DNA of 64,000 bases from Acidobacteriota bacterium (GTDB taxonomy: Bacteria > Acidobacteriota > Terriglobia > Acidiferrales > UBA7541). This document shows, one piece after another, positions 2,066 to 39,835 of this stretch (the first letter of the stretch is position 1; every line of letters starts with the position of its first letter). The translations under genes and the position numbers were made by a program. The stretch is from the NCBI GenBank assembly GCA_003223325.1, contig QHYS01000163.1, positions 1 through 64,000 of the forward strand, given 5' to 3'. Under the pieces are notes generated by a model that saw only the letters and a program-made list of their open reading frames with translations, was not told the DNA's origin and searched no databases.

Positions 2066-2216
2066 CGCATAACACAATAGAATGCGAATGTTACAGGCGT
2101 GAGAATGCCCTAATAAAGTGCAATTAAATACACCGATTGGATAATATCTATTTGCGTAAATCCTACTGTACGAGCAAGTCCAATCCTCCGGACGGCCGTG
2201 CGACAATTGGCAGCCG

Positions 2217-3390
2217 ATGAGGCGCATCGCCCTTGTTTACTTTGACGCGGGCGGAGGCCATCGGAATGCGGCGGTGGCCCTCGAACACCCTGCCCTGGGA
2301 AGTACACCTCGTAAATCTTCAGGTCCTTGATGAGTTCGACATCGTTCGCAGGGTTACCGGACTGCGAATCCAGGACGCTTATAACCGCATGCTGCAAAAC
2401 GGCTGGACGCTTGGCAGCACGCAATTGCTGCGTATCCTGCAGGGCATCATTCGACTCTACCACAGAAAAACAGTGCGATTACTAGACAGGTATTGGCTCC
2501 AGTGGAAACCCGATCTGGTCGCGTCGCTCGTTCCGTACTTCAACCGCGCGCTCTGCGAGAGCCTGCGCGAGGCCTGCCCCGGCAGGCCGTTGGTGACCAT
2601 TCTGACAGATTTCGCAGATTACCCCCCGCATTTCTGGATCGAAAGGCAGGAGCAATTTCTGATCTGCGGCTCTCGGCGTGCAGTCGAACAAGCGCGCGAA
2701 TTGGGCCATGCAAACGAGCGCATCTTTCAAACTTCGGGAATGATCCTGAATCCGCGCTTCTATAGCTGTAGCCCCATCGATCGTGGAGCGGAGCGGATTA
2801 AGCTGGGTCTGGAAGCTGCGCGCACGACGGGATTGGTGCTTTTCGGGGGTCAGGGAGCGCGCAAGAAGATGCTGGAGATCGATCGGCGCCTGAGTGAATC
2901 CGGGCTGCCGATTCAGTTGATCTTGATTTGCGGGAAGAATGGGCGCCTGCCCGCCGAGTTGCGCGCACAAGCGCGGGGGATACCGCGTCTGATCGAAGGG
3001 TTCACTAGCAACGTCCCTTACTACATGCGGCTTGCCGATTTTTTCATCGGCAAACCGGGGCCCGGGAGCATTGCCGAAGCGCTAGCGGTGGGCCTGCCAG
3101 TGATCGTAGACCAGTGATCGTAGAGAGGAATGCGTGGACTTTACCCCAGGAGCGGTATAACGCGCTGGGTACGCGAGAAACAAGTCGGGCTAGTGGTATC
3201 GAATTTCAAGGCAGTGGCTGGCACGGTCGCACAGCTGCTCGAAAAAGAGACGTTTGCGAAGTTTCGGTGCAACGCCAGAAAGATGCGCAATCGCGCTTTG
3301 TTTGAAATCCCGGATGTGCTCTCTCGGATTCTGCGGGAATCTAAAAAAGGGGCTGCCGCCGTGCCTCAAGGTCTCAGCGGAGATTCGTGA
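2217..3390 (+). pseudogene. MGDG-synthase-like glycosyltransferase, three frame breaks
   Basis: A glycosyltransferase of the MurG/monogalactosyldiacylglycerol-synthase type (GT28-like), which would transfer a sugar to a lipid acceptor at the membrane. The ATG at 2217 opens MRRIALVYFDAGGGHRNAA, with the family's GGGH loop. The frame changes at about 2291, apparently by loss of an AC unit, and continues through VTILTDFADYPPHFW and GKPGPGSIAEALAVGLPVIV. A 14-bp tandem duplication at 3097-3124 breaks it again before VERNAWTLPQERYN. A further two-base loss near 3158 precedes WVREKQVGLVV. The last frame stops at 3390, four bases before the lipid kinase start, so the two were translationally linked. 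No full-length product can be made. Lipid glycosylation is inferred from the family resemblance and neighbours. Confidence 0.75.
3097..3124 (+). repeat. 14-bp exact tandem duplication inside the glycosyltransferase
   Basis: The unit CCAGTGATCGTAGA occurs twice head to tail (3097-3110 and 3111-3124). With a single copy the reading frame runs on through the expected family motif PVIVERNAWT. With two copies it shifts and ends in VIVDQ-stop. This is a defined mutational event, unlike a homopolymer slip. Confidence 0.95.
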
Positions 3391-3394
3391 CCGC

Positions 3395-4336
3395 ATGCCA
3401 GATCCAATTCGCGATGCGCTGTTAATTTTCAATCCCACGGCCGGGCGCGCGCGCGGCCGTGGTTTGGCCGCGCTCGAACGCGCACGCAAGGTGCTGGCGC
3501 ACCAAGGAATCGATTCGGAATTGGCGCCCACCGATGGGCCGGGTTCTGGGCCGGAGCTGGCGCGCCGGGCCGTTCGCCAGCGCCGACAGATGGTGATTGT
3601 ATGCGGCGGCGACGGCACCCTGAACGAAGTGGTGAATGGGCTGGCGGGAAGCGTGATTCCCCTGGCTTTGCTGCCGGCAGGCACCGCGAACGTATTCGCC
3701 AAGGAATTAGGTCTCCCTTGGAATATCGAGCGGGCAGCCTCGCTGATCGCCGGCAGCCGGCTGCGGCGCATTGCCCTGGGTCACGTGAGGGCAGCGGAAT
3801 GGGATGAAGTCGGCCGCTATTTTCTGTCGCTTGCAGGCGCCGGGCCCGATGGAGCGGTGGTCCGTGGTGTCGATCAGAAGCTCAAAGACCGTATCGGCAC
3901 AATGGCGTTTTGGCTAGAAGGATTCCGGCAGTTGGGTGTGTACCGCTTCCCTCGATTCCGCGTACGGCTCGAGAATGGAACCTCGGAAGCCACGCTCATC
4001 ATCGCGGGCCGCACGAAGCATTACGCCGGTCCCCTTCGAATCACTACCCACGCCGATCTTTACGGAAATGACTTCGAAGTGCTGCTGTGCACGACCGGCA
4101 GCCGCTTGAAATATTTTTGTTATGTACCACTCCTCCTGGCGGGAGGACTCCGGCGCGCTCGCACGATCCGTTTTTTGAGGGCAACGAAGATCCGTTGCGA
4201 GCCGATCGACGCCGAACCCGCCTGGGTACAAACGGACGGCGAACCGGCAGGGCGCCTCCCGGCCGATTTCCAAATCGTTTCAGACGCACTGACCTTGGCC
4301 GTGCCGCAAAAATCCCCCCAGAAATCCGAAGGCTAG
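3395..4336 (+). CDS. Diacylglycerol/sphingosine-type lipid kinase
   Basis: A 313-residue member of the DAGK catalytic-domain family (DgkB/YegS type), which phosphorylates diacylglycerol or a related lipid with ATP at the inner membrane face. It begins MPDPIRDALLIFNPTAGRA, the first conserved loop, followed by GGDGTLNEVVNGLAG, the nucleotide-binding signature, and LPAGTANVFAKELGLP. The C-terminal half has the expected beta-rich domain (SLAGAGPDGAVV, LYGNDFEVLL, VQTDGEPAG). The ATG at 3395 is four bases after the stop of the broken glycosyltransferase, and a GGAG lies upstream. It is intact, unlike the three lipid-related genes beside it, so it may keep an independent role in diacylglycerol recycling. 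The exact lipid substrate cannot be read from sequence. Confidence 0.88.
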   Translation: MPDPIRDALLIFNPTAGRARGRGLAALERARKVLAHQGIDSELAPTDGPGSGPELARRAVRQRRQMVIVCGGDGTLNEVVNGLAGSVIPLALLPAGTANVFAKELGLPWNIERAASLIAGSRLRRIALGHVRAAEWDEVGRYFLSLAGAGPDGAVVRGVDQKLKDRIGTMAFWLEGFRQLGVYRFPRFRVRLENGTSEATLIIAGRTKHYAGPLRITTHADLYGNDFEVLLCTTGSRLKYFCYVPLLLAGGLRRARTIRFLRATKIRCEPIDAEPAWVQTDGEPAGRLPADFQIVSDALTLAVPQKSPQKSEG

Positions 4337-4729
4337 ACGCGTCCTTTTTCGGGCCGCGAGGGTCACCTGCGGGCAAGCCGCGCGCCCCAACCCGGTGCGA
4401 AGGATGTGGATTGGTGAGGATTGCGCAACTTAATAGCGAAGGGGTCGGGTATAAATCCCCAACTGTCGCCATTGAGGAGGCGCATTAAGCCTGCATTCCC
4501 TGACATTTGCATTTCCGCGCATCGGTCATACTGGCAGGTGTAACGCGATCGCGCGGATTCCGCGCACACCGAAGCGTTTTGGAATGATGCGCAATTGAGC
4601 TATATTCGCTTGTCAAAGAGTGCTGCATTTTGGGGAGCTTGTGAGTTGGAATGAAATCGCTTTGCGAAATCGCTCGACTGGTGAGTAGTAGGTCAGAGCC
4701 GATCCGTGTGGCTCGGGAGATGGAGTGAA
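4337..4729. other. Intergenic region upstream of rmlA
   Basis: About 390 bases without a convincing gene. It should carry the rmlAB promoter. AT-richer tracts lie at about 4428-4460 and 4596-4620, but no -35/-10 pair with good spacing stands out. No terminator hairpin with a T-run is seen after the lipid kinase. Confidence 0.5.
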
Positions 4730-5503
4730 ATGAAAGGCGTGGTGCTTGCAGGCGGTACGGGCAGCCGGCTGAATCCCCTCACACGCGTTACTAACAAACA
4801 CTTGCTCCCTATCTACGACAAGCCCATGGTCTATTACCCCATTCAAACGCTTGTTAACGCTGGAGTCCATGAAATCCTTTTGGTCACTGGCGGCAAGAAT
4901 GCAGGCGACTTCTTGCGGCTTCTGGGTAACGGACGGGATTTTGGTTTGAAGCATCTGAATTACACGTACCAGGAAGGTGAGGGTGGCATTGCGGACGCTT
5001 TGGCCCTAGCCGAACATTTCGCAGACGGCGACTCCATTTGCGTGATCTTGGGCGACAACATTATCGAAAATAATATCTGCCAGGCCGTCGCGAACTTCGC
5101 GAAACAAAAAGAAGGCGCCAAAATTCTCCTGAAGGAAGTTACCGACGCGCAGCGGTTCGGCGTGGCGGAGGTCCGTGGGAACCATGTGGTGGGCATCGAG
5201 GAAAAGCCAAAGCTCCCGAAGTCCAATTACGCGGTGGTAGGCATTTATCTTTACGATGACACCGTGTTCAAGAAGATTCGCCGCTTGAAGCCTTCCGGTC
5301 GTGGGGAACTAGAGATCACCGATGTCAACAATTTCTATATAGAAGAGGGAAAGCTCACCTACGAAGTTCTCGAAGGCTGGTGGACTGATGCCGGCACTTT
5401 CGATTCCCTGCTGCGCGCCAATACTCTGGTGGCGGAAACGGGAGCCAATAAGCCATCCCGGACCGGTGAGGAGCAACTCGCAACCGATCGGGTACTCCGA
5501 TGA
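4730..5503 (+). CDS. rmlA: Glucose-1-phosphate thymidylyltransferase (short RmlA type)
   Basis: Joins glucose-1-phosphate and dTTP to give dTDP-glucose, the first step toward dTDP-rhamnose and related deoxysugars, in the cytoplasm. It opens with the nucleotidyltransferase loop MKGVVLAGGTGSRLNPLT and has LPIYDKPMVYYPI, VILGDNI and VGIEEKPKLPKSNYAVVGIY, all typical of the family. At 257 residues it is the short form, lacking part of the C-terminal helical extension of enterobacterial RmlA. The ATG at 4730 has GGAG a few bases upstream; an in-frame earlier start lacks this. Its stop overlaps the rmlB start (ATGA), so the two are translationally coupled. Confidence 0.93.
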   Translation: MKGVVLAGGTGSRLNPLTRVTNKHLLPIYDKPMVYYPIQTLVNAGVHEILLVTGGKNAGDFLRLLGNGRDFGLKHLNYTYQEGEGGIADALALAEHFADGDSICVILGDNIIENNICQAVANFAKQKEGAKILLKEVTDAQRFGVAEVRGNHVVGIEEKPKLPKSNYAVVGIYLYDDTVFKKIRRLKPSGRGELEITDVNNFYIEEGKLTYEVLEGWWTDAGTFDSLLRANTLVAETGANKPSRTGEEQLATDRVLR

Positions 5504-11172: not shown

Positions 11173-14100
11173 TTACCAGACGAACTTTAAGGCAAACTGA
11201 ATTTCTCTCGACGGTGTCGACGTTGCGTACTCCTGCAGCTGACCTACGCTGCCTCCGCTTGGCGATCCGTCAGAGCCAAAAATTACAGAATTGCCGTCCC
11301 CGCTGCCCGGCTGGGGCGGCACGAAGCTGGGCCGGTTCAAGATGTTGAACATCTCCGCCCGGAACTGAATGTTGAACACTTCCGAGATCCGCTTGACTGG
11401 GAAGTTCTTGAGGATTGAGAAGTCCAGGTTCACGAGTCTCGGCCCGTAGAGGCTATTGCGGCTGACGTTACCCAGGAGATTCGCGCAAGTGCCAGCGATG
11501 CCCGGGTTGCCCTTCGAGGGATCGAAACCAAATGGTTGGCATTGAGAAGCAATCGCCGGAGTCGACTGGGGTAGCGTGAAACAGTTGGCGTTGATGTACG
11601 TGAGATTGGATGCTTTCCAGTTCGAATTAACAGGGTTACATCCCGGAACGATATTCGGCAGGCCGAACTGGTCGGCGCCCGTATTGCCGAGACCCAAGGG
11701 ATCATCCGAAATGATCGGAGTGGTGGGAACCCCGCTATTGATGGTGAAAATGCCGCCTAGTTCCCATCCGCCGAGGGCCATATTCGCAACCGGTCCTAAC
11801 GACTTGGCCGCGGGGAGAACCCACAAGCCATTGATCGATATGGCGTGCTTAACGTCATAGTCAGAGGGGCCGTAGAACGCCTTCGGCAGGAACCACATCG
11901 GCGAATTGAGACCGTTACCGAAGGAATCGCCAGCGATCGTCTGCGAGTCGTCATCGAGCGACTTACCATAGGTGTAGGCGAACTGAGCCTGGAAGCCGTG
12001 GCTGAACCTCTTCTCGAGATTTACATGGAATCCGTTGTAGTTGGAGGAGGTATTCCAGTAGACGTAGCGAATAACTCCTAAAGCCTTGTTGATCTGCGCA
12101 CTGGTCGCGCCCCCGGCTCCAAAAACGCCTCCCGTGAACCCGGCCGTGCAAGAGGTATCGGTGCTGGCGACGAAACCGCACGGGAAGAGGTAACCCGCAG
12201 GAGTCAGTGTGGGAATGGTCATGTTGCCGTCGTCGCCACGCATCAGCAGGTGCACGCCATGGGAACCAACATATCCTAGCGTTAGCGTTAGAGTTGGATC
12301 TAGCTGGCGCTGGATGTTAAAGTCCCACTGCATAACGTAACTGCGATGAGGATTAGTCTCAATCGTAGAGGCGGCCAGGCGGCTTTGCGTTGAGTTTGCG
12401 AGCAAGGGTTGTCCAACGCCAGCAGCAAACCCGCCTAATTTCGCCAAGCCCGACGCCAAGGCTCCGCCTTTAATGCTCTTGAATATCATGAACGGCGCGG
12501 CTTGATTTTGCTGAAGGAGGAAGTAACCGGGCAGCGGCAACACATCGTAGATACCGAAGCCACCGCGGACCGAAGTCTTGCCATTGCGGAAGGGATCCCA
12601 GGCGAACCCCAGGCGAGGCTCAAAGTCGCGAAGCGTGGGATTCTTGTAGTAAGCACCAACGCTGTCGCAACTGGTGCCCGGCTGCGCAGTGATTCCAAAC
12701 GCAGTTGATGCGTCGAACTGAGTTCCGCATCGCAGGTTCGCGTCGGCAATCGTAGCGGCACTCGGCTCGAAAATATTTACCAGGCTGCCGAACTTGCCCT
12801 GCGCGTCATGCACCACCGTGGCCATTTCGTAGCGCAGACCGAGGTTGAGCGTCAGGTTGGGACGGAAGCGCCAGTCATCCTGAACGTAGGCTGAGAATAT
12901 GGTCTGGCGCATTTCTCTCGGGGTGACCGTGTTCGGCAAACCCGCCTCGAAAGACTTAGGCACACCCGTTAGGAAATTTGTCAGGTTGCTGAACTTCCAG
13001 CGACCCCCTGGGTTCTGGAACGCCGTGGGGTTGTATAGCTCGCGCTCGACGTCGGCGCCAATTTTGATGGAATGGGCTCCATGGATCCAGTTCGCATCGT
13101 CGTAGAATTGGTAAGAGTTCCAGGCGTGCAGATAGTGAGAGCCCGAGTTTACTCCGCCAAACTCGTCGGAACGGTTGTCACTGCTGATCGTCAGCCGTGG
13201 TGCAGTCTGGTTGAGCGTGCTGCCCAAGCTCAAGTCGGCGCCCGCCGGATTGACCGCCTTGGAGCTAAATTGGTTGACTACGTAGTCTCGGTTATAACCA
13301 ATGCGTGCGGCATTCACAAAGCTGGTGCCGAACGTGTGGGTCTCTTCAATCGCGACGGTCTGGCGCCTGGTGTGCGAGTTGGTAATGATCAGGTTCATTT
13401 TGTCGGGCTGCGTGTAATCCGCATCGTCAACCAGATAGGTCCCGAACAAGCTATCCTTGTCGCTAATCCTGTGATCGAGGCGAACAGTGCCGAAATTCTC
13501 CGGCACATCCTGCACGCCAGCGAAGATAAATTTGCCTGTATCAGTCACCGTACCGGCAGTGGCGTGCGGATACAATGCCAGCAAGGCCGCAGAGTAAGGG
13601 TTCACCATGACCGGGCCGGACACCAGGTTCCCGCGGCGCGCCGCGTCCGACGGAACCGTAATCGAAGTCGGAATGCCCTTGGTCTGGCGCAGCCCCTCAT
13701 AATCACCAAAGATGAAAGTCTTGTCCTTGATGATGGGACCGCCTGCCGAGCCGCCAAACTGGTTGCGCCGGAAGGGCGGTTTCGGCTTGCCGGCCCCAAC
13801 GTCAAAGAAATCGTTCGAGTCCAGGGCACTATTCCTGAAGAACTCGTAAGCATCGCCATGGAACGAGTTCGTTCCAGACTTGCTGACCGCGTTTACGACC
13901 CCGCCGGCGGCCCGTCCATACTCCGCTGAAAAGCCACCGGTCAAGACGGAAAACTCCTGAATTGCATCCACACCGAGGACTACGCCGATTACGTCCCCGG
14001 GGGCGGCATTCGCGTAATCCACGACGCTGATGCCGTCAATGCGGTAGTTGTTAAATGTCGTCCTACCGCCCGAGATGGTGTACTCGCTTCCGAAGCCACG

Positions 14101-14661
14101 GTTGCCGCGCGCGGAGGTGTCGTAACTCATCTGGGTCTCGATCTTGTCGACGCCCGGCTGAAGAGTGGCAAGCTGGGTCCAATCGCGCCCGTTCAAGGGC
14201 AGTTCGCGCACGGTTTGCGCTTCCACTTCGCCGCTGAGTGTCGATGAGGTGAGCTGCACAGCCGGCGCCGATTCGGTTACTTGCACCTTTTGCGTGGTCT
14301 CCCCGATTTTCATCGCTATATTGAGCTGCTGCTGAGCCCCTACGGCCAGCTCTATATTCGACTGAATCGCCGTGCTGAATCCCGTGGCCGTGACGGAGAC
14401 CTCATAAGAGCCTGGCAACAAATTAGGAATCGAATAAAAGCCGGCTGAGTCTGTGGTGGCCACACGGGTCACGCCCGTTGCCGTATTCCTGGCAGACACC
14501 TGGGCGTTGGGAACGACTGCACCGGAAGGATCATTGATCGTGCCCGACAAAGTTGCTCCGGCCACTTGGGCACGCACCTGGCTGGCAAAGAAAATGGCTA
14601 TTGCTAAGGCAAACGAAACTAAGGCCAAAACGCGACACTCTCCTGGAAAAACTCTAAGCAT
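11173..14661 (-). CDS. Oar-like TonB-dependent receptor with carboxypeptidase-regulatory-like domain
   Basis: A 1162-residue outer-membrane protein. A signal peptide (LVSFALAIAIFFASQVRAQ) is followed by a carboxypeptidase-regulatory-like beta-sandwich (about residues 35-115, with ATLSGTINDPSGAVVPNAQV and GFYSIPNLLPGSYEV), a plug domain (about 130-245, with RELPLNGRDWTQLATLQPGV and AIQEFSVLTGGFSAEYGRAA), and a beta-barrel ending FALKFVW with a terminal aromatic. This architecture is expanded in Acidobacteriota. The ATG at 14661 is preferred because GGAGGG lies seven bases before it. Ligand unknown; peptides or glycans are usual guesses. The amidohydrolase lies downstream and the sugar dehydrogenase upstream in the same direction, but gaps of about 190 and 330 bp argue against one tight operon. 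Paralogous to the receptor at 42852. Confidence 0.93.
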   Translation of the reverse strand: MLRVFPGECRVLALVSFALAIAIFFASQVRAQVAGATLSGTINDPSGAVVPNAQVSARNTATGVTRVATTDSAGFYSIPNLLPGSYEVSVTATGFSTAIQSNIELAVGAQQQLNIAMKIGETTQKVQVTESAPAVQLTSSTLSGEVEAQTVRELPLNGRDWTQLATLQPGVDKIETQMSYDTSARGNRGFGSEYTISGGRTTFNNYRIDGISVVDYANAAPGDVIGVVLGVDAIQEFSVLTGGFSAEYGRAAGGVVNAVSKSGTNSFHGDAYEFFRNSALDSNDFFDVGAGKPKPPFRRNQFGGSAGGPIIKDKTFIFGDYEGLRQTKGIPTSITVPSDAARRGNLVSGPVMVNPYSAALLALYPHATAGTVTDTGKFIFAGVQDVPENFGTVRLDHRISDKDSLFGTYLVDDADYTQPDKMNLIITNSHTRRQTVAIEETHTFGTSFVNAARIGYNRDYVVNQFSSKAVNPAGADLSLGSTLNQTAPRLTISSDNRSDEFGGVNSGSHYLHAWNSYQFYDDANWIHGAHSIKIGADVERELYNPTAFQNPGGRWKFSNLTNFLTGVPKSFEAGLPNTVTPREMRQTIFSAYVQDDWRFRPNLTLNLGLRYEMATVVHDAQGKFGSLVNIFEPSAATIADANLRCGTQFDASTAFGITAQPGTSCDSVGAYYKNPTLRDFEPRLGFAWDPFRNGKTSVRGGFGIYDVLPLPGYFLLQQNQAAPFMIFKSIKGGALASGLAKLGGFAAGVGQPLLANSTQSRLAASTIETNPHRSYVMQWDFNIQRQLDPTLTLTLGYVGSHGVHLLMRGDDGNMTIPTLTPAGYLFPCGFVASTDTSCTAGFTGGVFGAGGATSAQINKALGVIRYVYWNTSSNYNGFHVNLEKRFSHGFQAQFAYTYGKSLDDDSQTIAGDSFGNGLNSPMWFLPKAFYGPSDYDVKHAISINGLWVLPAAKSLGPVANMALGGWELGGIFTINSGVPTTPIISDDPLGLGNTGADQFGLPNIVPGCNPVNSNWKASNLTYINANCFTLPQSTPAIASQCQPFGFDPSKGNPGIAGTCANLLGNVSRNSLYGPRLVNLDFSILKNFPVKRISEVFNIQFRAEMFNILNRPSFVPPQPGSGDGNSVIFGSDGSPSGGSVGQLQEYATSTPSREIQFALKFVW

Positions 14662-14991
14662 TCGCACACCCTCCGAAGGTCAGAATCCTTACTGGGACGG
14701 TTACCTGTGAACCGATCACCCGATCGTTTTTCAATGACCCCTAAGAAAAAAGAAACACAACACCCAACTCAAAAAGCTCCCTACGATAAGCTAATACGCG
14801 TGCCGGTTTAGCACCCGGACCGCTTCGATGTCAAGCTGCATGAACCGGTAACAACTGCGGAAGGCTTGACCGTAAGGGAAAAGCGAAAGACAGCAGCCCA
14901 ATCCTAAGGGCGCAAACCTTCTTACTCGCAGCCAGGTGGTTCAAAGATTGCATTAACGAGGCTGCTTCATTCACTACGCACTGCGAAGTTG
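14662..14991 (-). other. Intergenic region with possible receptor promoter
   Basis: About 330 bases with no gene. On the minus strand a TTGACA lies at 14829-14834 and the hexamer 18 bases on is TAAACC, a weak -10, so the promoter call is tentative. A/C-rich sequence (about 14745-14775) lies between it and the receptor gene. No operator-like palindrome was recognised. Confidence 0.4.
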
Positions 14992-16791
14992 TTAGCGCGA
15001 CGCAGTCTCCTTCGAAGGCGCCCCGCGCCTCGAAGTCGGAGGCGGAGTGACGACAGCAGTCAATTTTCGGATCATGCCGTCGGATTTGCTCAACACGTAG
15101 AGTTCACCGTCGCCCCCTAAAGCCATGCGGATGTCCGCGCGACCCCCGCCGTAGGCCACACCCTCAGGATCCACTTTGGCTTCGGGATGGGCCGGATCTT
15201 GCGAGCGAGTGGTCGCCCCGCCGTTGCCCGGCAGCACATGGTCCGCAGGTGGCATTCCTCTCCTGCGGGAATACGTTTCAGCGACGATATCGAACATCCG
15301 GCGCTTGGCAGTTTGGCCAGCAGTACCCGTGGGTCCTTTGTAGACAATCTGCAACTCATGAATTTGCGCCTGCTGGTCGCGTTTTCCGTGCGCGGCAATC
15401 ATCTCCCCGAAGTCGGCATAAAAAATCCTGCCGGTGGTCATGTCGTTGAAGATATATTTTCCGCGAAGTTGCGGCATCAGTTTCCCACGGTAGACGAAAC
15501 CGTTGCCAATCGAATCTCCCTCGCGATGACTGTAGACAGCAACCGGGTACAGGGCCGCAACCGGCTCACTGATCCCCTCCACCTGGAGGAGATCTTTTTC
15601 GGGGAAAGGCACCGGCGGGCTCATGAGACTGCCCGTCTTGCCCGCATCGTTTACAAAAAACTGCTCGTTCCCTTCCCGCTCAGCATAACCGTAATTGCCG
15701 CCTTTGGTGATGATGTCGACTTCTTCCCAATAATGCACGCCAATGTCATCCGCGATCAGCGTTTTCGTCTCCACATCCCATTGCAAACGGTGTGGATTGC
15801 GCAAACCGTAGGCATAGATCTCGCCGCGAGCGCCGGTCACGGAGACAAAGGGATTCGGGTCCGACCCGGTGGACGGAATTCTGTATTGGCCATCGGTGCT
15901 GAGCGTGTCTTTCGGGCGCAAGTTGGTGTTCGGAGTGATCCGCAGGATCTTGCCCACCAACGTGTCGAGCCGTTGCGGCAGAGTATGCGAGGGTCCCGGC
16001 GTTTCTCCGGAAGCGCCGTCGCCAATCGAAATATAGAGATTGCCGTAGTCGGCGTCCCCTGGCCGCGCCGACGGGTTAAAAACCAAATCGGCCATAGGGT
16101 GATTGCGATCGTAGCCGGTGCGCAGGATTTCACGCGCCGTACCCTCAAATGTGGAGTTGCGGATATTCGTGTCCGTCCACTCCACGAGCACTGATTCCAG
16201 GTGCGCGGGGCCCGCAGGCGGATTCACCACCGGAGTTGTGGAGTATCCCTTGATATCCAACGCCGAGAGGCGCGCATTTGTGGGGCTGGCCGACCCATCC
16301 AGGTCCGGCTTTTCCGTGTGCACGGTATAGAACTTGCCGTTTTTCGCATAAGCGGGATCAAAGGCAAACGAAACGATGCCGACGGTGTTGCCTAGATCGG
16401 AGGCGAACTTCGGGAAAATTTCCGAGAAATTCAAATACGGCGTGAACTTCTTGGTGCCCTTATCCAGAATGTATAGAGTGGAGCTCTGATCGTCCACGAA
16501 AAAGCGGGAACTCGCCAGTGGTGCGTTTGCCGGCTCCGAGCGTAAGGAAGTCACGCGGCCCAATTGCGCTTTGTAGTCGATTGCGCGCGAAGCCGAACCT
16601 CCGTGCGTCGGACTCGAAATAGGCAGTTCCGCATAATCCTCTAACAAGACTGAGGTGCCGTCCTTGCCGATTTGCGATCGCGAAGGGTACTGCGCGAATA
16701 GGACGGCCGTGCTCGTGACTAGGATGGCGAGCAGCACGAATCCAAAACGAAGTCTTGCAAACCGCTGGGCTATCCTTTGCTCCATTGCCAT
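14992..16791 (-). CDS. Secreted PQQ-type glucose/sorbosone dehydrogenase-like propeller
   Basis: A 599-residue protein of the soluble glucose/sorbosone dehydrogenase (GSDH) superfamily, six-bladed beta-propellers that oxidise sugars with PQQ. After a signal peptide (FGFVLLAILVTSTAVLFAQ) come family blocks: VGIVSFAFDPAYAKNGKFYT, GNLYISIGDGASGETPG, DTLVGKILRI, EIYAYGLRNPHRLQWD and GGNYGYAEREG. The region is longer than in classical GSDH and the catalytic His cannot be assigned with certainty by eye. Start at 16791 because GGAGGG lies upstream; an ATG at 16785 is possible. It would act in the periplasm and hand electrons to a carrier; no cytochrome is adjacent. No PQQ synthesis genes are in the window. 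Confidence 0.85.
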   Translation of the reverse strand: MAMEQRIAQRFARLRFGFVLLAILVTSTAVLFAQYPSRSQIGKDGTSVLLEDYAELPISSPTHGGSASRAIDYKAQLGRVTSLRSEPANAPLASSRFFVDDQSSTLYILDKGTKKFTPYLNFSEIFPKFASDLGNTVGIVSFAFDPAYAKNGKFYTVHTEKPDLDGSASPTNARLSALDIKGYSTTPVVNPPAGPAHLESVLVEWTDTNIRNSTFEGTAREILRTGYDRNHPMADLVFNPSARPGDADYGNLYISIGDGASGETPGPSHTLPQRLDTLVGKILRITPNTNLRPKDTLSTDGQYRIPSTGSDPNPFVSVTGARGEIYAYGLRNPHRLQWDVETKTLIADDIGVHYWEEVDIITKGGNYGYAEREGNEQFFVNDAGKTGSLMSPPVPFPEKDLLQVEGISEPVAALYPVAVYSHREGDSIGNGFVYRGKLMPQLRGKYIFNDMTTGRIFYADFGEMIAAHGKRDQQAQIHELQIVYKGPTGTAGQTAKRRMFDIVAETYSRRRGMPPADHVLPGNGGATTRSQDPAHPEAKVDPEGVAYGGGRADIRMALGGDGELYVLSKSDGMIRKLTAVVTPPPTSRRGAPSKETASR

Positions 16792-27953: not shown

Positions 27954-28655
27954 ATGAGTAAACACGATTCCACTCGCCGCTCCTTTCTGAAGCGCGCAGC
28001 CGTGGGCGCCGGAGCCGTCGCCGGGTCGGGCCTTGTCCCCGACGTTTACGCGCAGGCACTCGACCAGCATAAGGACGATGCCGCAGCAGGCGCGTCGCGT
28101 CCCACCTCGATTCAGCATGGCGCGTTTTTCAATTATGAGCAGGCCGCCACGATTGCGGCGTTCTCCGAACGCCTGATGCCCGGCGCACCCGGCAAGGCCG
28201 GTGCGCGCGATACGGGTGTTCTCAACTACATTGATCTGGCGCTCGCCGGCGCTTATGCCGATCTTCAGGATTTCTACCGGCGCGGGCTCGCTCAGCTCGA
28301 CGCCTACTGCCGCGCGACTTACAAACAACCTTTCGTCCAGCTCGAGCCTGCGCGCCAAGACGAAGTCATCACTGCGCTCGAACAGGGTAAAGCGGCTGGC
28401 TTCAGCTGGCCGACCGCGCCGGAGTTCTTCAACGTCGTTCGCACGCACACCATGGAAGGCATGTTCGCCGACCCGATCTACGGCGGCAACCGCGACTTTG
28501 CGGGCTGGCGCCTAGTGGGCTTCCCCGGCGCTCAAGGCAATTTCACGGCGACGGATTTGCAAAACAAGCAAACCTTCACGCGCGCGCCCATTACCGGCCT
28601 GCAAGCGCAGGCCGGCTTGCAGGCGCAGGCCAAAGTTTCCGGACGGACGGAGTAA
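27954..28655 (+). CDS. Tat-exported small subunit of a GMC dehydrogenase (gluconate 2-dehydrogenase subunit 3 family)
   Basis: A 233-residue partner of the FAD enzyme encoded next. The N-terminus has a twin-arginine signal (TRRSFLKRAAVGAGAVAGSG) followed by a cleavage-like VYAQA, so it crosses the inner membrane folded. The mature part (FFNYEQAATIAAFSERLMPG, YIDLALAGAYADLQDFYRRG, TMEGMFADPIYGGNRDFAGW) matches the gluconate 2-dehydrogenase subunit 3 family. As the large subunit lacks a signal of its own, this subunit probably carries it across. The C-terminus holds a duplicated GLQAQA from an 18-bp repeat. Start at 27954; only four bases separate it from the large subunit gene. Confidence 0.88.
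   Translation: MSKHDSTRRSFLKRAAVGAGAVAGSGLVPDVYAQALDQHKDDAAAGASRPTSIQHGAFFNYEQAATIAAFSERLMPGAPGKAGARDTGVLNYIDLALAGAYADLQDFYRRGLAQLDAYCRATYKQPFVQLEPARQDEVITALEQGKAAGFSWPTAPEFFNVVRTHTMEGMFADPIYGGNRDFAGWRLVGFPGAQGNFTATDLQNKQTFTRAPITGLQAQAGLQAQAKVSGRTE
28596..28631 (+). repeat. Imperfect 18-bp tandem repeat encoding GLQAQA twice
   Basis: Two adjacent 18-base units (28596-28613 and 28614-28631) differ at two positions and encode the same six residues near the C-terminus of the dehydrogenase small subunit. In-frame, so length changes would be tolerated. Confidence 0.85.
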
Positions 28656-28658
28656 TCC

Positions 28659-30380
28659 ATGGCCATCGAAAAAACAGACGTCGTCATCGTAGGCGTGGGC
28701 GCAGTGGGCGGCATCCTCGCCGCCGAACTCGGGAAAGCCGGCATGAAGGTCATCGGCCTGGAGCGAGGTCCGCGCCTCACCACTCAAGATTTCAGCGCGC
28801 TCGATGAATTGCGCTACTTCCAGCGCCAGGAGTTGCGTCCCAATGCCAAGCGCCAGCCGGTCACCTGGCGCCCCAACGCAAAATCCAATGCCAAGCCGCT
28901 GCCGATTCTGAACTACGGCAATCAGGCCGGAGGCGGCACGGTCCACTACGGCGCCCTTTCCTGGCGCTTTCACGAAGACGACTTCCGTGCGCGCTCCCAC
29001 ACCATCGAACGCTATGGCGCCTCGGCGATCCCGGCCGACTCATCGCTCACCGACTGGCCCTTGACTTATGCCGACCTCGAGCCTTTCTACGACCGGGCCG
29101 AATATGAACTCGGCGTCTCCGGCAAAGCGGGCAATCTGCAGGGACGCAAAACCGACGCCGGCAATCCTTTTGAAGCGCCACGGCGTCGCGAATATCCGCT
29201 TCCGGCCTTGCTGCCCGACCAATCGGGCGTCATCTTCACAGCGGCGGCCCAGAAGCTCGGCTATCATCCGTTCTCCTCGCCGCGCGCCATTCTCTCACAG
29301 CCTTATAACGGCCGCGCCGGCTGCACCTACTGCGGTTTCTGCCAGTCCTTCGGCTGTCACATGGCCGCAAAATCCAGCATTCTCGTCACGAAGCTTCCCG
29401 AAGCCGATGCCACCGGCAATTTCAAGCTGCTCACCGGCACGATGGCCTATCGCGTGAATAGCGATAACAGCGGGCGCGTCACGGGCGTCTCATACTACGG
29501 TGCGGACGGCTCCGACAATACGATCGAGGCCGACCTCGTCATCCTCGCCACGTTCATCTACGACAATACGCGGCTGCTTTTGCTTTCTAAAACGGCAAAA
29601 TTCCCCAACGGCTTGGCCAATTCGAGTGGACAACTCGGCGAACACCTGATGGCACACATCGGCGCGCGCGTGTTTGTGGCTTTCGATGATCGCTACGTCA
29701 ATATCTACATGGGACCGAGCGCCCAGAAACATAGCCTCGACGATTTCAACGCCGATAATTTCGACCACGCCGGCATGACATTCATTCGCGGCGCGCAGCT
29801 CTCGGTCACTCCTGCCGACCTCGAAGCCGGCCCCATAGGCGCATCCATCAACATGAATCCGCCGCCCGGAATTCCGCGATGGGGCGCGGCCTATCGCGAC
29901 TTCCTCGCGAAATACTTTGCGCGTTACGCCGCGTTCATCGCACAGACCGAAAACCTGCCGTACGCCGATCAGACCATCGACCTCGACCCGCATGTGCGCG
30001 ATCAGTACGGCATGCCCGCTCCGCGTCTCACCTACGACTGGCGGAGGCCAAACGAAGTGGCGCGTATCGAGTTCCTGCTGAACAAGCTCGAGGAGCTAGG
30101 TCGCGCCTCAGGTGCACAGCATGTCTGGCGTTCCCCGACTGGCTCCGGAGCGCCTGGCGCCCACCACGAGGGCGGCACGCGCATGGGCACCGATCCAAAA
30201 CTTTCGGTCGTGAACCGCTACGGCCAAAGTTGGGATATTCCCAATCTCTTCATTATCGGAAGCTCGACGTTTCCTACGATGAGCGGCTTCAATCCCACAC
30301 TCACCATCCAGGCGCTCGCTTACTGGAGTGCCGATGCCATCGTCAACCGCTATAAGAAAAACCCCGGCGCGCTTGTCTAA
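28659..30380 (+). CDS. GMC-family FAD dehydrogenase, large subunit
   Basis: A 573-residue glucose-methanol-choline oxidoreductase that would oxidise a sugar, sugar acid or alcohol in the periplasm. The FAD-binding GVGAVGGILAAELGKAGMKV lies at the N-terminus. GNQAGGGTVHYGALSWRF, RAGCTYCGFCQSFGC (about residues 219-233) and HHEGGTRMGTDP with NPTLTIQALAYW at the end follow the family order, the last two carrying active-site His and Asn. The clustered cysteines (Cx2Cx2Cx4C) resemble the iron-sulfur-ligand region described for bacterial membrane-linked sugar dehydrogenases of this family; binding here is inferred. It has no signal peptide and probably travels with the Tat-tagged small subunit. The cytochrome c third subunit of such complexes is not adjacent. 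Confidence 0.9.
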   Translation: MAIEKTDVVIVGVGAVGGILAAELGKAGMKVIGLERGPRLTTQDFSALDELRYFQRQELRPNAKRQPVTWRPNAKSNAKPLPILNYGNQAGGGTVHYGALSWRFHEDDFRARSHTIERYGASAIPADSSLTDWPLTYADLEPFYDRAEYELGVSGKAGNLQGRKTDAGNPFEAPRRREYPLPALLPDQSGVIFTAAAQKLGYHPFSSPRAILSQPYNGRAGCTYCGFCQSFGCHMAAKSSILVTKLPEADATGNFKLLTGTMAYRVNSDNSGRVTGVSYYGADGSDNTIEADLVILATFIYDNTRLLLLSKTAKFPNGLANSSGQLGEHLMAHIGARVFVAFDDRYVNIYMGPSAQKHSLDDFNADNFDHAGMTFIRGAQLSVTPADLEAGPIGASINMNPPPGIPRWGAAYRDFLAKYFARYAAFIAQTENLPYADQTIDLDPHVRDQYGMPAPRLTYDWRRPNEVARIEFLLNKLEELGRASGAQHVWRSPTGSGAPGAHHEGGTRMGTDPKLSVVNRYGQSWDIPNLFIIGSSTFPTMSGFNPTLTIQALAYWSADAIVNRYKKNPGALV

Positions 30381-35018: not shown

Positions 35019-35414
35019 ATGAATACCAAATTCGCTGCACGTTCGATTGCCGCTCTCTTGTTGATTTCCGGCGCGGCCTTCGCACACCACGGCGCGGCGG
35101 GCTATGACTCGAACAAACTAACGACCTTGAAGGGAACTGTGACCGAATTCCGCTTCCAGAATCCTCACGCGCAGATTTTCCTAGATGTGAAGGACTCGTC
35201 GGGCAAGGTCCAAAACTGGATTCTCGAAGCCGTGGGCATAGCCACTTTATCGAGAAGCGGCTGGACGAAGAGCGTCCTCAAACCGGGTGACGAGATCACG
35301 GTCAGCGGGAATCCCGCCAAGAACGCCTCGCCGTCGATGCGTCTCACCAAGGTGGTTTTGGCCAGCGGCAAGGAGCTTGGACTCGAGCGCGGCGAGGATT
35401 ATGCGGGACAATGA
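35019..35414 (+). CDS. DUF6152-type small secreted protein
   Basis: A 131-residue secreted protein. The signal peptide (RSIAALLLISGAAFA) is followed directly by HHGAAGYDSNKLTTLKGTV, a mature start typical of the DUF6152 family, with two His at the new N-terminus that might bind metal. The rest (FRFQNPHAQIFLDVKDSSGK, VLKPGDEITVSGNPAKN) looks like an OB-fold-like beta-barrel. A GGAGG lies nine bases before the ATG at 35019. The gene is followed by another secreted protein with which it probably forms an operon. The function of the family is not known to me. Confidence 0.82.
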   Translation: MNTKFAARSIAALLLISGAAFAHHGAAGYDSNKLTTLKGTVTEFRFQNPHAQIFLDVKDSSGKVQNWILEAVGIATLSRSGWTKSVLKPGDEITVSGNPAKNASPSMRLTKVVLASGKELGLERGEDYAGQ

Positions 35415-35516
35415 GCGCTCCCTCTTCCACCCCATCGCGCGCGAAGACGGCGCGCTGTGCACCCCAGAGTTCGCTGAAACGAAGTGGGGTGGGATGACTC
35501 AAGGGAGGAGGGCGGA

Positions 35517-36335
35517 ATGCGCAAATGGTTGACGGCCTTCGCGTTGCTGGCGGCGCTCGGCTTTACGTGTGGCGTGCTGGGTCAAAGTAATGGCCCGGCG
35601 GCCCGCACGGGAGCGACAAAGGACCCGGCTGGAGGCACGAGGGTTCCGCTGGGCACGAGGCCCGACCTTTCGGGCGTTTGGCGGCGTTCGCGGCGCCCTC
35701 CCAACGACAAGCGCAAGTACACGCTTTACGAGATCGCCTTGACGCTGACGAACGAGGAGCCGCCCATGACGCCATGGGGACTCGAGAAGTTCAAGGCCGC
35801 CAAGCCGAATGTCGGACCTCATGCCGTCACTTTGGCCCAGACGAATGATCCGGTGGCCCAATGTTTCCCTCCGGGAGTGCCTAAAATTTACCTCGTGCGA
35901 GGCGCTCCTTTCGAGATTCTGCAAGCGCCCGGCCGCATGATGATGTACTTTGAATACGACCACTTCGTGCGCGAAATCTTCACCGATGGAAGGCAGCATA
36001 CGGCGGATTTAAATCCTACCTGGATGGGGGAGTCGATCGGCAAGTGGGAGGGGAATACGCTCGTCGTCGATTCCACCGGTTTCAATGAGAAGACCTGGCT
36101 CGATTATGCGGGCCATCCGCACAGCGATCAGCTGCACTTGGTGGAGCGCATACATCGCATGAATCATGACACCCTGGTGGACGACCTCACCATCGAAGAT
36201 CCCAAGGCTTATACCAAACCCTGGGTCTCGCACATGGTCTTTGATCTGAAGCCGGATTGGAAGATTGAGGAAACGATCTGCGAAGACAACGTCAACTTCT
36301 CGAATCTACAAAAAATATCTGAATCCAGCAAGTAG
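35517..36335 (+). CDS. Secreted protein of unknown function paired with DUF6152
   Basis: A 272-residue protein with a signal peptide (WLTAFALLAALGFTCGVLGQ) and no domain I can name. The mature part carries motifs that look conserved: RPDLSGVWRRSRRP, EEPPMTPWGLEKF, CFPPGVPKIYLVRGAPFEIL, YFEYDHFVREIFTDGRQH, PTWMGESIGKWEGNTLVVDS and HSDQLHLVERIHRM. The LSGVW opening, WxG.S.G.WEGNTLVV and xHSDxLHxVER strings recur in secreted proteins annotated only as hypothetical in Acidobacteriota and Proteobacteria. The ATG at 35517 follows GGAGG. About 100 bases after the DUF6152 gene, same strand. A beta-rich ligand-binding or enzyme fold is possible. Confidence 0.75.
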   Translation: MRKWLTAFALLAALGFTCGVLGQSNGPAARTGATKDPAGGTRVPLGTRPDLSGVWRRSRRPPNDKRKYTLYEIALTLTNEEPPMTPWGLEKFKAAKPNVGPHAVTLAQTNDPVAQCFPPGVPKIYLVRGAPFEILQAPGRMMMYFEYDHFVREIFTDGRQHTADLNPTWMGESIGKWEGNTLVVDSTGFNEKTWLDYAGHPHSDQLHLVERIHRMNHDTLVDDLTIEDPKAYTKPWVSHMVFDLKPDWKIEETICEDNVNFSNLQKISESSK

Positions 36336-36367: not shown

Positions 36368-37384
36368 TCATGCGCGGACCCCCTCGACGATGCTCAGCGG
36401 GCACTTGGTGGGCACGACGCGGGTCAGCTTCAACCCCGCTTTCCTGAACAGCGTCGCGAACTCCTTTTTGGTGCGCTCGCGACCACCGATAATCAGCATT
36501 TGCATATCAACGAGCTTTCCCCGGTCGGGTTCGTTGCCGGGAGGGATGATACTCTCAACGACAAGCACCTTTCCCTTCTGACTCATGACGGCGCGACAGT
36601 TGGCGAGAATCTTGGCGCATTGCTCATCGTTCCAGTCGTGCAGTACGCGCTTTATAATGTAGGCATCACCGTCCTCGGGCACCGCCTCAAGGAAGTCTCC
36701 CGTTTCGATCGTGCAGCGCTCGCCAACGCCTTTCGCCGCGAGTTGCCGGTCCTGCTTGGCGCGCGTGCCGTCGGAGGGCTGATCGAAGAGCACGCCCTTC
36801 AGTTTCGGGTTCGCCCGGAGAATGGTAGCAAGGAGCGTGCCGTGTCCACCGCCCACGTCCACGAGCGTCCGGATTCCGGCGAATTTATTGGCGGCCGCAA
36901 TTGCCGGATTCTCGGTCGAGGACATGCTTGTCATCGACTCGTTGAAGATCGCGAACTCTTCGGGGTGCTTCTCGAGGTACTCGAAGTAGGAGACTCCGTG
37001 GGCTTTGAGAAATGGCACTTCGCCTGTTTTTATTCCGTGGAGCAATTGCGCCCAGGCATCCTCCCGATACCTAAGCGAATGGTGGAGCGCGACGGCGCGT
37101 ATGGAGCCCGGGACGCCCTTCTGAAGAGTGGCGGCGAGCGGAGTTAACTTGAATCGCTTGTCCTGTGTCTCCGCGAACACCCCGAAGCTCGCCAATGTGC
37201 GAAGCAGGCGGTAGAGGGCCGGCGCCTGAACCTCCGCGGCTCTCGCCAACTCTTCGACCGTCCGCGGGCCGTCCTTAAGAAGGTCCGCAAGCTCGAGTTT
37301 CGTGGCGACGAAGATCAGGTGCGACACCCAGCGTCCCGTGATGAGGCCGAACATGACGGCTGGCGGTGACGGCTTCTTGGCCAT
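36368..37384 (-). CDS. SAM-dependent O-methyltransferase (plant COMT/acetylserotonin type)
   Basis: A 338-residue class I methyltransferase of the O-methyltransferase-2 family, which methylates phenolic or other hydroxyl groups of small molecules. An N-terminal winged-helix dimerisation domain (GPRTVEELARAAEVQAPALY, RLLRTLASFGVFAE) precedes the SAM fold. LVDVGGGHGTLLATIL is the SAM-binding loop and LHDWNDEQCAKIL supplies the His-Asp pair used as general base in this family. KGKVLVVESIIPPG follows. Cytoplasmic, with no biosynthetic gene next to it, so the acceptor is unknown. Ends head-on against the secreted protein gene. Confidence 0.9.
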   Translation of the reverse strand: MAKKPSPPAVMFGLITGRWVSHLIFVATKLELADLLKDGPRTVEELARAAEVQAPALYRLLRTLASFGVFAETQDKRFKLTPLAATLQKGVPGSIRAVALHHSLRYREDAWAQLLHGIKTGEVPFLKAHGVSYFEYLEKHPEEFAIFNESMTSMSSTENPAIAAANKFAGIRTLVDVGGGHGTLLATILRANPKLKGVLFDQPSDGTRAKQDRQLAAKGVGERCTIETGDFLEAVPEDGDAYIIKRVLHDWNDEQCAKILANCRAVMSQKGKVLVVESIIPPGNEPDRGKLVDMQMLIIGGRERTKKEFATLFRKAGLKLTRVVPTKCPLSIVEGVRA

Positions 37385-37509: not shown

Positions 37510-39420
37510 CTAACGTGAGCGGGCCTGTTCGAGGCGAGCTTGCGCCTTCAGCGACTCTAAATCTTTTTCGGTGCGCAAGGTCATGCGCGCGACTTTGCGC
37601 GCTCGCGAATAGGGAAGAATTACCTGAATTCCGCCGTCTTTTTCGAGCAAAGAAACATAGCGCGTCTCGGCGCCGAGCGTGGGGAAGGGATATTCGACCC
37701 ACTTGGAAGTCTTGGGATCGAATTTCACGACTTCGTCGGCGTTCATAAGATTGATCCACACATTATGGTTGGAGTCTACCTGGGCTTGATAGGGCTGTAG
37801 GGCGTCAGGTCTGGGAAGCGGAATCATAGTCACTTTCAAGGTGTGTGTATCGATTCGCGCGAGACTTCCTCCCCACCAATCGCAAACCCAAACCACATGC
37901 CCATTCTTGTCCGCGCCCATCCTACGGGGTCCTTCCGCCCACGGCATCGCCGTATTCCAAGTGGACCCCGCGGCCGCATAGACCTTACGCTCTTCATCCG
38001 TGGCAAGGTCCATCTGGCCCGGGACGGGAGGGAGCTTGATCTGCGCGACTTTGCCGGACTTGATGTTCGCTTTGCCGATCGTGTCCATATTCATTTGCGC
38101 CCACCAGCCATTGCCGTCGCCATCCGCGGCCAGTCCGTAGGTGTTTCCGATCCCATCGGCGTTTTTGTAGATCGGAGACTTGAACTCGGTAAATTCCTTC
38201 TTGTCCGGGTCGAAGCGCACGGCTCCTGGGCCTGTAGTAGCCCAAACCTTGCCCTTACCATCCACGTCCACTGTTCCCGCCGTGGTGGTGGGGCCGGTCA
38301 TACCGTCGGGCACGGTAAACACCTCGATCTTTTCGGTGCTGGGATCGATTTTGGCCAATCGTCCCTGGCCACCTTCGACGCCTGCGCTCATATTGAACCA
38401 GAGGATTCCTTGCCGATCCCTGGCGAGCCCGTGACCATTCGCGGCCATACCGTGCAATCCGGCGACCTTGAATGTCTTCAGCGCGCCTGTCTTGGCATCT
38501 ACTCTCCCTAAGCTGATGTCGTGATTGGAAACGTTATAGGAAAACCAGATATTGCCCTGCAGATCGGCTTGAGCATCGTGGATGCCGTGGGCGCCACTCA
38601 AACTCGAGGGCGTTCCGAGCGACCAATCGCTTCCGTCGTTGGTGATGTATTCGGTTCCCGATTTTTCGTCTGGGGCGATGGGTACGTCATACTCGGTAAA
38701 GACGGCGCGTGCCGCCTCTCCCGTCGGGCGCGGGCGCAGCTTAAAATTCAGGGCGCTCGACTCCGGCCCGCTAATCCTTGCGAGATAGGCCGCCAATTCC
38801 TTCTCATGAAAGTCGATGACGGGCGCGGGATCGCTTTTGTCCCCCAGATAGCCACCGGCAACATTTACGCGCTTCATCAGATCGAGAATGGCCGTCCAAC
38901 CGGAGGTATCGAAGCGCTCCTGAAGAATGTAGTTGGGCTGGTGACAGCTCGTGCAGCTATTGCGGAAGACTCGCTTCAGGCGGCGATCGTCGGGCGTGGC
39001 GTCTGGCAATGACGCCAGCAACTGGTCGCCGGTCAATTGCCTTTGAAAATCCCTCAGAGGCTTTAAAGCAAAATCCTGATGCCGCGTAGTGGTCAAATTG
39101 ACTCTGGCGCGGGCGGTCGCGAAGGTATCCGCCTGGGCCCAAATTTCGTATTCTCCCAGCGCCAGCGGAGGAAAATAGTAATCGCCTTGCTGATCGGTAA
39201 AGACGCTCGTGGTGATGGTGCGCCCGAGCGCTTTGGCGGAGACGGTCACTCCGCTCATTTTTTCACCGGAGTCTGATTTCACGGCTCCAGCGAGCAAGGC
39301 GCCGCTTTCATCAGCTCCGTAGGTCCAAGAAGCGGCGAAGACCGCAAATGCCATCGTCACAATGGCAAGAGTAAGGACCCCGGCGAGACGTTCCGACGAA
39401 AAAGTTCGCGTATTTCTCAT
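37510..39420 (-). CDS. Secreted fusion: regulatory-like domain, c-type heme site, streptogramin-lyase-like propeller
   Basis: A 636-residue exported protein with three parts. After a signal peptide (VLTLAIVTMAFAVFAASW) comes a carboxypeptidase-regulatory-like beta-sandwich (about 40-118, LLAGAVKSDSGEKMSGVTVS, GDYYFPPLALGEYEI). A single CxxCH heme site follows (NSCTSCHQPNYI, about residue 155), with a Met-containing helix behind it. The remaining 380 residues form a seven-bladed propeller like virginiamycin B lyase (GIHDAQADLQGNIWFSYNVS, GHGLARDRQGILWFNMSAG, VDVDGKGKVWATTGPG, HNVWINLMNADEVVKFDP). Heme attachment and periplasmic context make a redox role more likely than antibiotic cleavage. 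A separate cytochrome c gene lies 40 bases upstream, probably the electron partner. Substrate unknown. Confidence 0.85.
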   Translation of the reverse strand: MRNTRTFSSERLAGVLTLAIVTMAFAVFAASWTYGADESGALLAGAVKSDSGEKMSGVTVSAKALGRTITTSVFTDQQGDYYFPPLALGEYEIWAQADTFATARARVNLTTTRHQDFALKPLRDFQRQLTGDQLLASLPDATPDDRRLKRVFRNSCTSCHQPNYILQERFDTSGWTAILDLMKRVNVAGGYLGDKSDPAPVIDFHEKELAAYLARISGPESSALNFKLRPRPTGEAARAVFTEYDVPIAPDEKSGTEYITNDGSDWSLGTPSSLSGAHGIHDAQADLQGNIWFSYNVSNHDISLGRVDAKTGALKTFKVAGLHGMAANGHGLARDRQGILWFNMSAGVEGGQGRLAKIDPSTEKIEVFTVPDGMTGPTTTAGTVDVDGKGKVWATTGPGAVRFDPDKKEFTEFKSPIYKNADGIGNTYGLAADGDGNGWWAQMNMDTIGKANIKSGKVAQIKLPPVPGQMDLATDEERKVYAAAGSTWNTAMPWAEGPRRMGADKNGHVVWVCDWWGGSLARIDTHTLKVTMIPLPRPDALQPYQAQVDSNHNVWINLMNADEVVKFDPKTSKWVEYPFPTLGAETRYVSLLEKDGGIQVILPYSRARKVARMTLRTEKDLESLKAQARLEQARSR

Positions 39421-39460
39421 GGCGGCTGCTCCTTGAACTTCAATCGACTGATGTCTCTAA

Positions 39461-39835
39461 CTAATCGACTCGATCTTCTCCCTTGGTTTGCGGGCCGCGC
39501 GACGCCGGTTTCGGGACAGTTTCCAAATACTCAACGATAGCACTAATATCGGAGGCTTTGAGCCCGTACCTAAAGCCCGGCATCTTGTCCGATCCTTTTC
39601 CGATGAAATCGCCCATAGCGTCTTCTTTGCCGTTCACGATGTCCCGGTATAAAGAAGGGCCATACATCGGGTTGGTGAGAGTCGCTTGCGTGTGGCAGAC
39701 GCTACAGTTTTGTTGGAAAAGGCGCCGGCCAAGGGTCACCGGATCATAGGGCGGCGAGCTATTGCCGTTCTGTGCCGGAAGCGTAAGTGGGAACAGCAAA
39801 ATCGAAAATAGCAGCACCATCGAGCCGTATTTCAT
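39461..39835 (-). CDS. Class I cytochrome c, small secreted
   Basis: A 124-residue periplasmic cytochrome. The signal peptide (MVLLFSILLFPLTLPAQ) precedes a single heme-binding CSVCH; the distal Met is probably in DKMPGFRYGL, followed by the C-terminal helix DISAIVEYLETV usual in class I cytochromes. It is the first gene of a two-gene unit with the heme/propeller fusion, whose start lies 40 bases downstream. It should carry electrons from that protein, or from another periplasmic dehydrogenase, to the respiratory chain. Confidence 0.9.
   Translation of the reverse strand: MKYGSMVLLFSILLFPLTLPAQNGNSSPPYDPVTLGRRLFQQNCSVCHTQATLTNPMYGPSLYRDIVNGKEDAMGDFIGKGSDKMPGFRYGLKASDISAIVEYLETVPKPASRGPQTKGEDRVD

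Follow-up and report, generated by a model that had tools for sequence, protein, structure and literature searches.

A Vgb-type propeller protein with a predicted heme c domain and a conserved cytochrome c partner in Acidobacteriota

Acidobacteriota abound in soils, and for many of the redox proteins that they secrete no role is known. Among the closest described systems to the gene pair analyzed here, quinohemoprotein amine dehydrogenase (QHNDH) combines a propeller and heme c within a single complex, with two hemes in its alpha subunit, and its propeller and heme subunits relay the electrons of the dehydrogenase. In periplasmic dehydrogenases, heme parts such as QHNDH alpha and SorB (the heme subunit of sulfite dehydrogenase) accept the electrons. 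In the streptogramin (virginiamycin B) lyase Vgb, polar side chains in blades 6 and 7 lie close to where substrate and Mg2+ bind (PMC8916777), and PDB entry 2z2p describes the H270A mutant in its title as catalytically inactive.

The locus lies on contig C147 of a 6.1 Mb draft genome (G000), within a stretch of 64,000 nucleotides that was analyzed as a whole and is called the window here. The nearest matches that carry a name are MAGs from soil with the label Acidobacteria gp2, at protein identities of 89-90%. An earlier note had described a carboxypeptidase-regulatory-like domain, a heme site, and a virginiamycin-lyase-type propeller in one protein, encoded in the same unit as a class I cytochrome c. 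Open reading frames and Pfam bear out this domain description and the coordinates of both genes, which together span 37510-39835 on the minus strand; the P0002 gene is upstream of the P0001 gene with 40 bp between them, and the pair is conserved. Both N-termini have a hydrophobic stretch that, judged by eye, resembles a signal peptide, and from this appearance both proteins are probably secreted.

Two heme sites and a constant partner

The features of the gene pair outside the propeller are as follows.

37510..39420, minus strand: P0001, heme c-propeller protein, 636 aa
39461..39835, minus strand: P0002, class I cytochrome c, 124 aa, dedicated partner (Pfam and partner conservation)
39064..39291, minus strand: CarboxypepD_reg domain, P0001 residues 44-119 (Pfam PF13620, E 1.1e-11; strands in the model)
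38716..39063, minus strand: heme c domain, P0001 residues ~120-235 (profile against the PDB; four helices in the models)
38941..38955, minus strand: CxxCH of P0001, residues 156-160 (27/27 subfamily members examined)
38875..38877, minus strand: Met182 of P0001, predicted sixth heme ligand (27/27 in the subfamily, 9/10 distant heme-bearing relatives)
39692..39706, minus strand: CxxCH of P0002, residues 44-48 (18/18 partners)
39581..39583, minus strand: Met85 of P0002, presumed sixth heme ligand (Met-Pro in 18/18 partners)

P0001 has three cysteines in total and a single CxxCH. The motif appears in 4 of 20000 residue shuffles of the protein, and its retention in every one of the 27 subfamily members examined (30 genes minus the partly masked L055 and the broken L075 and L085) argues that it is not there by chance. 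Three Cytochrom_C_asm matches indicate that cytochrome c assembly genes are present in the genome, and together with the CxxCH motifs they suggest that P0001 and P0002 would each carry covalent heme c. When 14 heme pieces of related proteins are aligned, only four residues never vary: two Cys, the His, and one Met. The invariance of His160 and Met182 in 27/27 relatives, with the Met 22 residues past the motif His, points to these two residues as the predicted axial heme ligands, and such a ligation would be compatible with electron transfer.

Taken alone, the heme part of P0001 has no significant Pfam match (best E 0.052), and Foldseek with the heme domain alone returns no match at E 0.001. 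When a profile of the 14 heme pieces (A4) was searched against the PDB, QHNDH alpha came first and second (1jmx_A, 1.1e-7; 1jju_A, 1.3e-7) and SorB third (2blf_B, 1.2e-4). SorB is also the top VIA match of a separate model of the heme domain (pLDDT 73.4), with a modest score (Z 6.6, rmsd 5.3, 77 residues aligned); QHNDH is absent from the VIA matches of this model, which speaks neither for nor against kinship. The AlphaFold2 model of full-length P0001, built from 15 sequences, has a mean pLDDT of 82.1 and a pTM of 0.85, and drops below a pLDDT of 50 in the signal region and at residues 162-166, adjoining the heme motif. PF09098, the family of the QHNDH heme domain, has one match genome-wide, on C203, and none at P0001, so kinship with QHNDH is distant; against the 14 heme pieces it matches 5 at E up to 1 (best 0.008), with no match to the P0001 piece.

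The profile similarity could be taken to mean that the locus encodes a quinohemoprotein amine dehydrogenase proper, complete with a CTQ gamma subunit. P0001, however, has one heme motif rather than two, is passed over by PF09098, and finds its best propeller matches in Vgb, and we regard this reading as scarcely credible. The gamma-subunit family PF08992 also has no match in the genome, although this counts for little because none of 14 controls matched either.

P0002 fits a class I cytochrome c, with its CxxCH toward the N-terminal side, a distal Met, and Pfam matches to Cytochrome_CBB3 (9.7e-12) and Cytochrom_C (8.1e-07). Of the 30 subfamily genes (defined by at least 290 bits with profile A1, with near-identical species pairs included, so that loci are not independent), 28 have a P0002-like cytochrome that is either fused or no more than 1.5 kb upstream, versus 1 of 13 distant relatives. 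Of the two remaining subfamily genes, L080 has its cytochrome directly downstream, and L077, on a contig of 3.8 kb, has none in view. The 13 distant relatives are the 16 lower-scoring rows minus L016_8580, L085_11912, and L085_7528, which do not count as separate genes, and two of the 13 are heme-less; the sole one with a P0002-like cytochrome is L010, as a fusion. The cytochrome profile was built from 18 partners, which match it by construction, and the cytochromes recognized from outside it include those of L009, L031, L038, and the fused L049, L050, L081, and L083.

Where the cytochrome is fused (L049, L050, L081, L083, and the distant L010), it sits at the N-terminus, and a fusion is also present in the broken L085 gene. 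Separate genes are 10-101 bp apart in the 15 pairs measured. Distances among partners and among propellers correlate at r 0.90 over 17 pairs, with 0/2000 permutations as high; the species tree was not removed, and the correlation is partly due to shared ancestry. Within the genome itself, P0002 has two strong matches, on C147 and C73, which each adjoin a P0001-like gene; a third match is weak. Apart from this cytochrome, the P0001 subfamily has no constant partner.

The propeller and its pocket

Five further features belong to the propeller.

37573..38709, minus strand: Vgb-type seven-bladed propeller, P0001 residues 238-616 (2z2n alignment, Foldseek)
38578..38580, minus strand: His281, conserved blade-entry residue (26/27)
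38431..38433, minus strand: His330, conserved blade-entry residue (26/27)
37921..37926, minus strand: Arg499-Arg500, PRR motif (R499 27/27; R500 24/27, Lys in three)
37660..37662, minus strand: Arg587, at the place of the Vgb catalytic His270 (Arg in 26/27; His in one, L083)

The assignment of this part of P0001 to the virginiamycin-lyase type is well borne out by structure. Vgb (2z2n) aligns with residues 238..616 over 291 residues at Z 35.0 and rmsd 2.4 with chain order kept, other propellers follow at Z ~31, and the Foldseek match of the P0001 model to Vgb has an E value of 6.5e-19. Pfam gives Vgb_lyase 51.1 bits, barely over its cut-off of 50, and SGL 31.5 bits.

If P0001 were a streptogramin lyase, that is, an antibiotic-resistance enzyme, then this fold and this Pfam match are what would speak for it, but the residues and the specific profile do not. 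The catalytic His270 was looked for, and Arg587 stands in its place; the 2z2n alignment itself ends at Thr586/Pro269, and Arg587 pairs with the His of 2qc5. Vgb His228, which we take to be a functional residue of Vgb, aligns to Tyr544, which is Tyr in 27/27. NCBIfam Vgb(B) scores 27.8 bits against a cut-off of 600. Because both histidines are replaced, streptogramin lyase function appears unlikely on sequence grounds, in agreement with the view of the earlier note that this is not an antibiotic lyase, and we give a resistance enzyme hardly any chance.

What the subfamily conserves instead is a blade-entry set of His281, His330, Tyr428, Arg499-Arg500, Tyr544, and Arg587, each kept in 24 to 27 of 27 members (five of the ten headless or other rows of the alignment are unrelated neighbor proteins that passed the length filter, one from L102 and four from L103, and were ignored in the counts). 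From the blade pattern, these residues probably line one pocket. The pocket seems, from its residues, to belong to a wider set of propellers, some with heme and some without. Four heme-less relatives, L017 in the same genome, L057 in a Chloroflexi MAG, L102 on a Paraburkholderia plasmid, and L103 on a Methylocystis plasmid, agree with P0001 at eight of the nine propeller positions compared, with Asn in place of Asp562, and no cytochrome gene is called or annotated beside them in the surrounding stretches. Since these relatives share the pocket letters, the chemistry of the pocket need not be redox.

These shared positions favor a reading in which the propeller is a lyase, lactonase, or hydrolase acting on a soil metabolite, while the heme senses redox state or anchors the protein. 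There is precedent in PMC8916777, where Vgb and CylK carry out non-redox chemistry with the same propeller type. A non-redox propeller would, however, leave the conserved second cytochrome and its fusions unexplained, and we think this reading quite improbable.

We recognized no catalytic redox cofactor site in the P0001 propeller. PqqE is over cut-off in the genome that holds the locus, but it is found in 4/15 genomes with a module match (among them G087 and G432, 72-76% complete) versus 13/32 without one, the latter picked by hand. The module and PqqE thus show no association, which gives PQQ as the pocket cofactor no support; PQQ may still serve, because it can be scavenged from outside. 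As a side observation, L073 in genome G122 has a full-length PQQ dehydrogenase gene at 12911-14863, while this genome, listed as 100% complete, has no PqqE at E 1e-90; given the dehydrogenase gene, G122 may take up PQQ.

The reading that we prefer, at about even confidence, is a secreted two-heme module in which the P0001 propeller binds a ligand and its heme c passes electrons to P0002 and then to respiration. The His/Tyr/Arg pocket of the Vgb-type propeller would take up a small ligand, probably acidic or rich in oxygen, and electrons from the bound substrate, or from a cofactor held in the pocket, would move to the His/Met heme c of P0001, from there to P0002, and on to the respiratory chain, with the CarboxypepD_reg domain, a beta-sandwich, perhaps serving as a spacer or for docking. 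Of the steps in this mechanism, computation supports the two heme sites and the partnership between them; the direction of electron flow, and the pocket as the site of oxidation, we infer.

Most likely, then, P0001 either is a periplasmic oxidoreductase itself or forms the cytochrome end of such an enzyme. The earlier suggestion of a periplasmic oxidoreductase holds insofar as a redox role is predicted for P0001 and it has a conserved cytochrome of its own, but not as far as an oxidoreductase in its own right, for which no catalytic center was recognized. A bolder version, which we hold to be unlikely, is a periplasmic heme-c dehydrogenase of a new class, whose propeller would oxidize a small acidic or phenolic soil compound by means of a cofactor or metal in the pocket of His281, His330, Tyr428, Arg499-500, Tyr544, and Arg587, with the QHNDH-like heme domain and the cytochrome c as the wiring to respiration.

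Gene neighborhoods, possible donors, and spread

The strongest rival to the two-heme module with its own ligand is a relay or docking subunit without catalysis of its own, in which the electrons would come from another periplasmic dehydrogenase, held by the propeller, and the two hemes would only conduct them. A His/Met heme fits such a role, as does a heme domain related to QHNDH alpha, and candidate donors are not lacking: a GMC oxidoreductase with Gluconate_2-dh3 about 7 kb off in the window, the same GMC family in the genus mate L030, PQQ dehydrogenase genes in L050, L073, and L074, and a molybdenum oxidoreductase in the neighborhood of L039. None of these candidates is constant across loci, however, and the propeller positions (24 to 27/27) come close to the heme ligands (27/27) in conservation, which a pure scaffold would not need. 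We consider a pure relay somewhat unlikely.

In the neighborhoods compared, no third gene was constant across loci. The window and L030 share nearby genes for a GMC oxidoreductase, an NHL protein, HupE/UreJ_2, a dienelactone hydrolase-like protein, a DUF6152 protein, and a PDLSGVW protein. L038 is flanked by BcrAD and HGD-D genes (benzoyl-CoA-reductase-/hydroxyglutaryl-CoA-dehydratase-like), a LigB dioxygenase, Amidohydro_2, and Zn-ADH, with the BcrAD/HGD-D genes and the LigB and Amidohydro_2 genes at 752-5010 and 12035-15921 on the flanks of the module copy. The neighbors of L033 are SGL, isochorismatase, Ldh_2, and Fe-ADH, and those of L049, L050, and L074 are DUF1592-type cytochromes, DUF1552, and PQQ dehydrogenase genes. 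Several neighbor genes are catabolic, some of them aromatic, but none is constant, and since the neighbors vary between loci, the pair looks like a self-contained module in different settings.

Some features of these surroundings are worth recording in their own right. The Gluconate_2-dh3 and GMC oxidoreductase pair of the window, at 27954-30380, has no adjacent gene with a heme motif. Genes for a DUF1592/1588/1585/1595/1587 protein, DUF1552, and the cytochrome and heme-propeller, fused or paired, stand in a row at L049 3626-9740, L050 3644-9743, and L074 2557-10175, with the PQQ dehydrogenase genes near these rows; the L049 MAG is labelled Acidobacteria and the L050 MAG Vicinamibacteria. An O-methyltransferase gene at 36368-37384, downstream of P0001, is absent there in the genus mates L030 and L031; it is a recent gain or loss and is ruled out as a fixed third gene.

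The DUF6152/PDLSGVW region of the window (35019-36335) belongs to a very large family expansion in this genome, with 100 DUF6152 matches and 149 matches of the PDLSGVW protein (fragments included), many of them side by side by coordinates. With such numbers, one or more matches would fall within 16 kb with a chance of 0.23 for DUF6152 and 0.32 for the PDLSGVW protein, which by eye is near 5/9 heme-propeller loci where about 3 would be expected. We draw no link from either family to the module. The PDLSGVW protein has no Pfam or NCBIfam match at E 0.01, and none of the papers searched names DUF6152.

The earlier note had called for a search of taxonomic spread and linked genes, and in ours the cytochrome is the one constant linked gene. 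At E 1e-80 the gene is present in 7/95 genomes of the order, its own included, and in 2/17 genera; at E 1e-50 it is present in 9/396 genomes of the phylum, again with its own, the 396 having been drawn evenly from a larger group with three candidates per genome scored. A named collection holds 16 loci, in MAGs labelled Acidobacteria, Terriglobia, and Vicinamibacteria plus L047 and L057, most of them on contigs already counted (new are L047, L049, L050, and L057). L047, in a Xanthobacteraceae MAG and so beyond Acidobacteriota, may be a transfer or a binning error. Among 72,556 plasmid records there are 7 matches, none covering more than 80% of the query; four of the seven were inspected, and L101 was not used.

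The architecture is also not unique within its own genome, where heme-propeller relatives occur at no fewer than seven other loci. These are L009-L014 and the frame-broken L016, and they match P0001 in its front part as well as in its propeller. L009 alone is close to P0001 (60%), and an eighth locus, L015, matches over residues 38-245. Frame-broken or truncated heme-propeller genes lie at L016 8580-10018, L085 7528-9785, and L075 9073-9879.

Comparison with known systems

The component families are all known; their combination with a fixed cytochrome partner appears new, and it would be more than a new combination should oxidation turn out to take place in the propeller. Among the matches listed we found no published description of the heme-propeller and cytochrome layout, in a search that covered a minority of subscription papers. 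Lyase and regulatory-like labels hide a subfamily that resembles a module for electron transfer in which the cytochrome partner is fixed, and given this resemblance its transcripts and proteins would more sensibly be interpreted as signs of respiration than of antibiotic resistance. The unit comprises two genes and is small enough for expression and testing.

A 417-aa protein on a Microvirga ossetica plasmid (L100) is like P0001 in its CxxCH, its Met, and eight of nine propeller positions, with Arg for His281. Its CxxCH, however, is only ~40 residues from the start, leaving no room for an N-terminal CarboxypepD_reg domain, and no second heme motif occurs among the genes called in the surrounding 13 kb. 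Vgb (2z2n, 2z2p, 2qc5) shares the seven-bladed propeller of P0001 (Z 35.0, rmsd 2.4, 291 residues), whereas P0001 adds a heme domain and a CarboxypepD_reg domain, has His270 and His228 replaced, and adjoins a cytochrome gene. The resemblance to SorB (2blf_B) is confined to the heme domain (profile 1.2e-4, VIA Z 6.6); P0001 differs in having its propeller in cis, and no molybdenum oxidoreductase is among the window neighbors scanned. QHNDH (1jmx, 1jju) matches the heme-domain profile best (E 1.1e-7), but where it has two hemes in one subunit, P0001 has one heme motif with the second in P0002, a Vgb-type propeller in cis, and a separate class I cytochrome.
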